Assembly (NCBI RefSeq): GCF_947499845.1
Contig: NZ_CANMPM010000004.1
Coordinates: forward strand, 1 to 64,000
Source of the DNA: an uncultured Pseudokineococcus sp.
Lineage (GTDB): Bacteria; Actinomycetota; Actinomycetes; Actinomycetales; Quadrisphaeraceae
Length of the DNA stretch: 64,000 bases
Direction: 5' to 3'
Shown here: in pieces, positions 41,792-42,025 of the stretch
Layout: each line of letters starts with the position of its first letter
Numbering within the stretch: the first letter of the stretch is position 1
The notes under the pieces: model-generated
Database searches by the model: none
Told to the model about the DNA's origin: nothing
Seen by the model: the letters and a program-made list of their open reading frames with translations, nothing else
Position numbers and translations under genes: made by a program

Positions 41792-41962
41792 GTCGGTCTC
41801 CCTGGGGTCGGTGGCCCGCGGTGGGCGGGCCGACGGGGCGGTCGGATCTGCCGGCTGCGGCGCTCGCCCGACCTGCCCGGTCGGGCCCGGGGGCCTCGGG
41901 GCGTGCCCGGGGGGTGCCCGGAGGTGGTCGGACGTGCTCGCCGCAGCGCTGGGATGCCCCCG

Positions 41963-41968
41963 ACCCTA
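41963..41968 (-). promoter_or_regulatory. Predicted -10 of the gapA operon
   Basis: The minus strand reads TAGGGT. If the hexamer covers -12 to -7, transcription starts at 41956. The -35 region (GGTGGG) is poor, as for an activator-dependent promoter. Confidence 0.5.
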
Positions 41969-42009
41969 GGGGATCGGCCCCGCGCCCCACCCCCCGGCGC
42001 GGCCCGGCG

Positions 42010-42025
42010 TGTGACGCCGGTCACA
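42010..42025. promoter_or_regulatory. CRP/GlxR-type binding site upstream of gapA
   Basis: TGTGACGCCGGTCACA matches the TGTGA-N6-TCACA consensus of CRP and GlxR exactly. Its centre at 42017.5 lies 61.5 bp before the predicted transcription start, the classic class I activator position. Actinobacterial GlxR/Crp is known to control glycolytic genes in Corynebacterium. Confidence 0.65.

Follow-up and report, generated by a model that had tools for sequence, protein, structure and literature searches.

Results

The gapA locus and its predicted promoter

Three glycolytic genes, gapA, pgk, and tpiA, lie in that order on the reverse strand of the window (the whole 64,000-nucleotide stretch of DNA that was analyzed), and whiA lies upstream of them (Table 1). 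The genome measures 3.72 Mb and is of high GC content (0.76 in the gapA locus). We take gapA, pgk, and tpiA to be cotranscribed. The gap between whiA and gapA, 314 bp long, contains both a palindromic box of the CRP/GlxR type and the predicted gapA promoter.

Table 1. Features of the gapA locus, in window coordinates
Feature	Position	Strand	Basis
CRP/GlxR-type palindromic box TGTGA-N6-TCACA, TGTGACGCCGGTCACA	42010..42025	.	Exact match; at least 9/10 in 4/4 genus genomes
gapA, type I glyceraldehyde-3-phosphate dehydrogenase, first of gapA-pgk-tpiA	40787..41791	-	TIGR01534, 442 bits vs cut-off 367; ORF list
pgk, phosphoglycerate kinase	39573..40751	-	PF00162 E 3e-142, residues 414-794 of frame 39576-41990; 40751 is where the family match starts, and the start codon lies slightly further upstream
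tpiA, triosephosphate isomerase	38766..39569	-	PF00121 E 1.9e-90
whiA, same strand, upstream of gapA	42106..43086	-	TIGR00647, above cut-off
Predicted -10 hexamer TAGGGT of the gapA promoter	41963..41968	-	41-bp gap from box in 4/4 genus genomes; recurrence upstream of gapA across the order
Predicted transcription start (inferred)	41956	-	Canonical distance from the -10

Of the 58 order genomes surveyed, 25 carry an exact TAGGGT in the 350-bp stretch before gapA, and 22 of these 25 are among the 54 genomes outside the genus; the reversed word and the reverse complement each occur there in 1 of 58. When near variants were included, the count rose to 37 of 58 genomes, against 5 for a control made of three of the four words, the fourth reading the same backwards. 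This recurrence across the order, relative to the controls, supports TAGGGT as the predicted gapA -10 hexamer. Candidate -35 elements match TTGACA at no more than two of six bases at spacings of 16 to 19 in each of the four genus genomes, and a sigma-70 scan of positions 41700-42200 found nothing. Because -35 motifs of Corynebacterium glutamicum are poorly conserved in general (PMC3917453), a weak -35 argues only mildly for activator dependence. The predicted gapA leader (window positions 41792-41956) is ~165 nt long. Among the genus genomes, TAGGGT lies 176-177 bp from the start codon in the genome under study (G000) and in G001, versus 95-105 bp in G002 and G003.

An exact CRP/GlxR-type box at -61.5 of the predicted start

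All 10 half-site bases of the box match the TGTGA-N6-TCACA palindrome, and on the gapA strand the box reads TGTGACCGGCGTCACA. Its center lies ~226 bp upstream of the gapA start codon. Given TAGGGT at -12 to -7 and a predicted start at ~41956, the center (42017.5) falls at -61.5. A preliminary description of this DNA had named a full consensus match at this site, a center 61.5 bp upstream of the start predicted from TAGGGT, and a poor -35; the half-site count, the coordinates, and the -35 comparison bear out all of these.

Exact boxes were scarce in the background. The window holds one, compared to 0.01 expected (one of 100 dinucleotide shuffles had one), and the whole genome (3,719,373 bases) holds two, against none for a reversed-pattern control. 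When one mismatch is allowed, finding a match is nothing unusual for the window, since 31 of 100 window shuffles give one, and we therefore place the weight on the exact match and its conservation. At the same tolerance, the whole genome contains 10 sites (reversed control, 0), and the four genus genomes contain 10-13 boxes each, compared to 0-2 for the control. The second exact box of the genome, TGTGACCTAGATCACA (L001:1501-1516, contig C3 of G000), overlaps the end of a sigma-factor-like frame and lies 73 bp before a ParB-like frame, both frames being named by eye.

A single CRP/FNR-type protein

The genome, whose completeness is 97.55%, yielded one PF00027 protein. This CRP/FNR-type protein of 225 amino acids has a cNMP-binding domain and a Crp-type HTH domain. 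Its best structure matches are, in order, 3h3u, 3mzh, 3d0s, and 3i54, followed by 4cyd, 4byy, and 3r6s; E values are 3e-82 to 4e-82 for 3h3u, 3d0s, and 3i54 and 5e-80 to 7e-80 for 4cyd, 4byy, and 3r6s, each over nearly the whole length. The protein is identical to the 3h3u chain over the aligned putative recognition-helix stretch, which we take to be the DNA-reading helix and which is presumably of the type that reads TGTGA/TCACA. According to PMC4254451, 4CYD, 4BYY, and 3R6S are C. glutamicum GlxR, and 3D0S and 3I54 are Mycobacterium tuberculosis CRP. As judged by these alignments, the 225-amino-acid protein is closely related to M. tuberculosis Crp and C. glutamicum GlxR. It scored 95.6 bits against the NCBIfam CRP model PRK11753, below the cut-off of 266; this model was probably built on the enterobacterial branch. 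A CRP orthologue was matched in 13 of 13 family genomes, the match in G001 (an assembly of 580 contigs) being a 28-residue piece only, and these 13 include the 9 genomes without a box at 9/10 or better. One predicted cyclase catalytic domain (PF00211) was found in the genome under study.

Conservation of the box and its spacing within the genus

The box is present in all four genus genomes, matching 10, 10, 9, and 10 of the 10 half-site bases. G000 and G001 share the same box, G003 has TGTGACCCGCGTCACA, and G002, which carries the one changed base (TGTGG), has TGTGGCCCAGATCACA. In each of the four, the gap between the box and TAGGGT (TAGGCT in G002) is 41 bp, and the box center lies at varying distances from the start codon (226, 225, 144, and 154 bp). 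The preliminary description had assigned the box to the class I activator position and had named its absence from close relatives as a result that would refute this. That comparison turned up the box at the 41-bp gap in four of four genomes, which supports the class I reading.

G000 and G001 are 95% identical over the gap, and we counted this pair as one lineage. Between the three resulting lineages the 41-bp gap is 51-59% identical. With only one member of the near-identical pair counted, 9 of 10 half-site columns are identical across the three lineages, compared to 15 of 41 columns in the gap between the box and the -10 (one-sided Fisher test, P = 0.003); single-pair tests with G002 were weak (0.06 and 0.05). 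An unshifted alignment of the gap was best for two of the three pairs, and for G000 versus G003 other shifts were equal or better. Going by these alignments, the fixed 41-bp spacing is partly a matter of shared ancestry.

Distribution of the box outside the genus

None of nine family genomes from other genera has a box of at least 9/10 upstream of gapA (0/6 in g2, 0/2 in g3, and 0/1 in g4). The single g4 genome has an 8/10 box at a different place. In all six g2 genomes (L010, L012, L013, L015, L016, and L017), 7 bp separate the TGA that ends the whiA frame from the gapA TAGGGT that follows. The upstream portion of the gapA promoter would thus extend into whiA, and any class I site in g2 would have to be located within that gene. 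The idea that TAGGGT of g2 begins with the whiA stop codon was considered and proved wrong, given the position of the TGA in all six.

We surveyed 58 of the 59 genomes of the order, leaving out G027 for its weak gapA match. Five of the 58 have boxes of at least 9/10 upstream of gapA, namely, the four genus genomes and G035, which belongs to another family; shuffles gave a mean of 0.29, and none of 200 reached five. When the genus was left out, the count was 1 of 54 (G035), which 51 of 200 shuffles reached and which is at chance level. At a threshold of 8/10, boxes occur in 10 of the 54 genomes outside the genus, compared to a shuffle mean of 4.3 (1 of 200 shuffles reached 10), and the reversed control gave 0 of 58. 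These counts hint that some of the weaker boxes before gapA elsewhere in the order are real, with the reservation that two families contribute two genomes each and that positions vary, and we do not build on them.

For a wider view, we used 80 named gapA loci, mostly of Actinobacteria by title and representing the best 80 of 587 relatives; two of them have less than 350 bp of upstream sequence (L045, 159; L061, 237). Among these loci, none had a box of at least 9/10, and 8/10 boxes were no more frequent than in the reversed control (5/80 vs 5/80). Nor was -61.5 a preferred position outside the genus: at 92 loci with a -10-like hexamer, out of 138 (58 genomes plus 80 named loci), the mean box score with the genus left out was 2.45 at a 41-bp gap versus 2.34 (standard deviation, 0.30) at all gaps. 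At the sensitivity used, the box is a fixture of this genus.

Several single loci deserve mention. Two loci from one genus of another family, L031 (G035) and L141 (G017), have TGTAACAAACTTCACA and AGTAACAAACTTCACA ~240 bp upstream of gapA, and a TAGGGT-like word was not found upstream of gapA in either; the two boxes may represent a distinct Crp site or a chance match that both genomes inherited. L011 (G029) and L025 (G045) have 8/10 boxes, TGTGACGAGGACGACA and TGTGACGAGGGCGACA, just downstream of the gapA TAGGGT, which would be a blocking position if the boxes are real and bound. Two Corynebacterium loci, L088 and L094, each have an 8/10 box (at -296 and -292 of gapA, respectively), which might be a Corynebacterium GlxR site or chance.

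Discussion

Interpretation of the box

We think it likely that the Crp/GlxR orthologue genuinely binds the box and that the box serves the gapA promoter as a class I activator site; on the sequence evidence, class I activation is the best reading. In the mechanism we infer, from start site and binding through activation and the alpha contact to the cAMP response and its direction, a Crp dimer would bind the box at -61.5, on a helix face that the C-terminal domain of the RNA polymerase alpha subunit could reach. The bound Crp would then aid polymerase onto a gapA promoter with a TAGGGT -10 and hardly any -35, and expression of gapA-pgk-tpiA would rise with cAMP. We favor activation over repression, and dependence on cAMP, because of the position of the box, the weak -35, and the precedent in C. 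glutamicum. Because nine other family genomes have no box that reaches 9/10, the activation claim is limited to the genus, and because the CRP orthologue is matched in each of these nine, gapA would seem to have no general need of the box.

A less probable reading, and a rather unlikely one in our estimate, keeps the box as a genuine Crp site and gives it another effect: the main gapA start could lie at another point of the 314-bp gap, or Crp could repress gapA or block transcription that enters from whiA. The start at 41956 is itself a prediction, and certain weaker boxes would suit such an effect if they are real, namely, those of G029 and G045 described above and an 8/10 box in the family relative G006, which lies 10 bp from TAGGGT with its center at -30.5, again a blocking position. 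Set against this are the exact -61.5 geometry in all four genus genomes, together with the poor -35, and the modest standing of the 8/10 boxes themselves, which outside the genus reach about twice the chance level in the order and only the level of the reversed control in the wider set.

Binding by a different regulator that also recognizes a TGTGA-like palindrome is very improbable. GlxR sites often have a central TA, which the central six bases of this box lack, yet the CRP/FNR-type protein described above is the only one found in the genome, and its helix belongs to the type that reads TGTGA/TCACA. We give equally little credence to a chance palindrome without function: a lone site in one genome could arise by chance, as in 1 of the 100 window shuffles, but the half-sites are conserved across three lineages while the gap diverged, boxes of at least 9/10 stand at one fixed gap in all four genus genomes, and none of 90 further-upstream 350-bp segments from the same 30 loci reached 8/10 (three of the 90, from L031, were taken on the wrong strand).

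Beyond class I activation within the genus, it is conceivable, if doubtful, that Crp control of gapA has been repeatedly gained, lost, and moved in the order, being of class I in the genus, absent from g2, and at other or blocking positions elsewhere. If so, gapA would offer a natural series for watching a glycolytic promoter change its global regulator.

Comparison with known systems

In Escherichia coli, CRP-dependent promoters of class I (lac type) have the site centered at -61.5. The gapA promoter described here has in common with them a center at -61.5 of the predicted start and a weak -35; sigma and polymerase differ, and the contact with the alpha C-terminal domain is a putative one here. 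The response to sugar may also differ, in that cAMP may rise on sugar in this genus if it follows the pattern of C. glutamicum, for which PMC7999487 gives lower cAMP on acetate than on glucose.

The closer likeness is to the gapA-pgk-tpi-ppc operon of C. glutamicum. The first genes of the operon are the same, and the regulators are related, the GlxR chains 4cyd, 4byy, and 3r6s being among the seven best matches of our protein. There, gapA is positively regulated by GlxR, with SugR and RamA also acting, as reported in PMC7999487. Among the matches listed from the open-licence literature, none reported Crp/GlxR control of gapA, of glycolysis, or of class I promoters in the genus studied here. 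What we describe is an ordinary, known kind of regulation in a new place, since C. glutamicum is already reported to activate gapA through GlxR. Its value lies in a clear, testable prediction, cAMP control of glycolysis in this genus, that is backed by conserved spacing. The link between regulator and operon reported for C. glutamicum probably exists in another lineage as well, and near relatives that possess the regulator seem to do without the link through the box.
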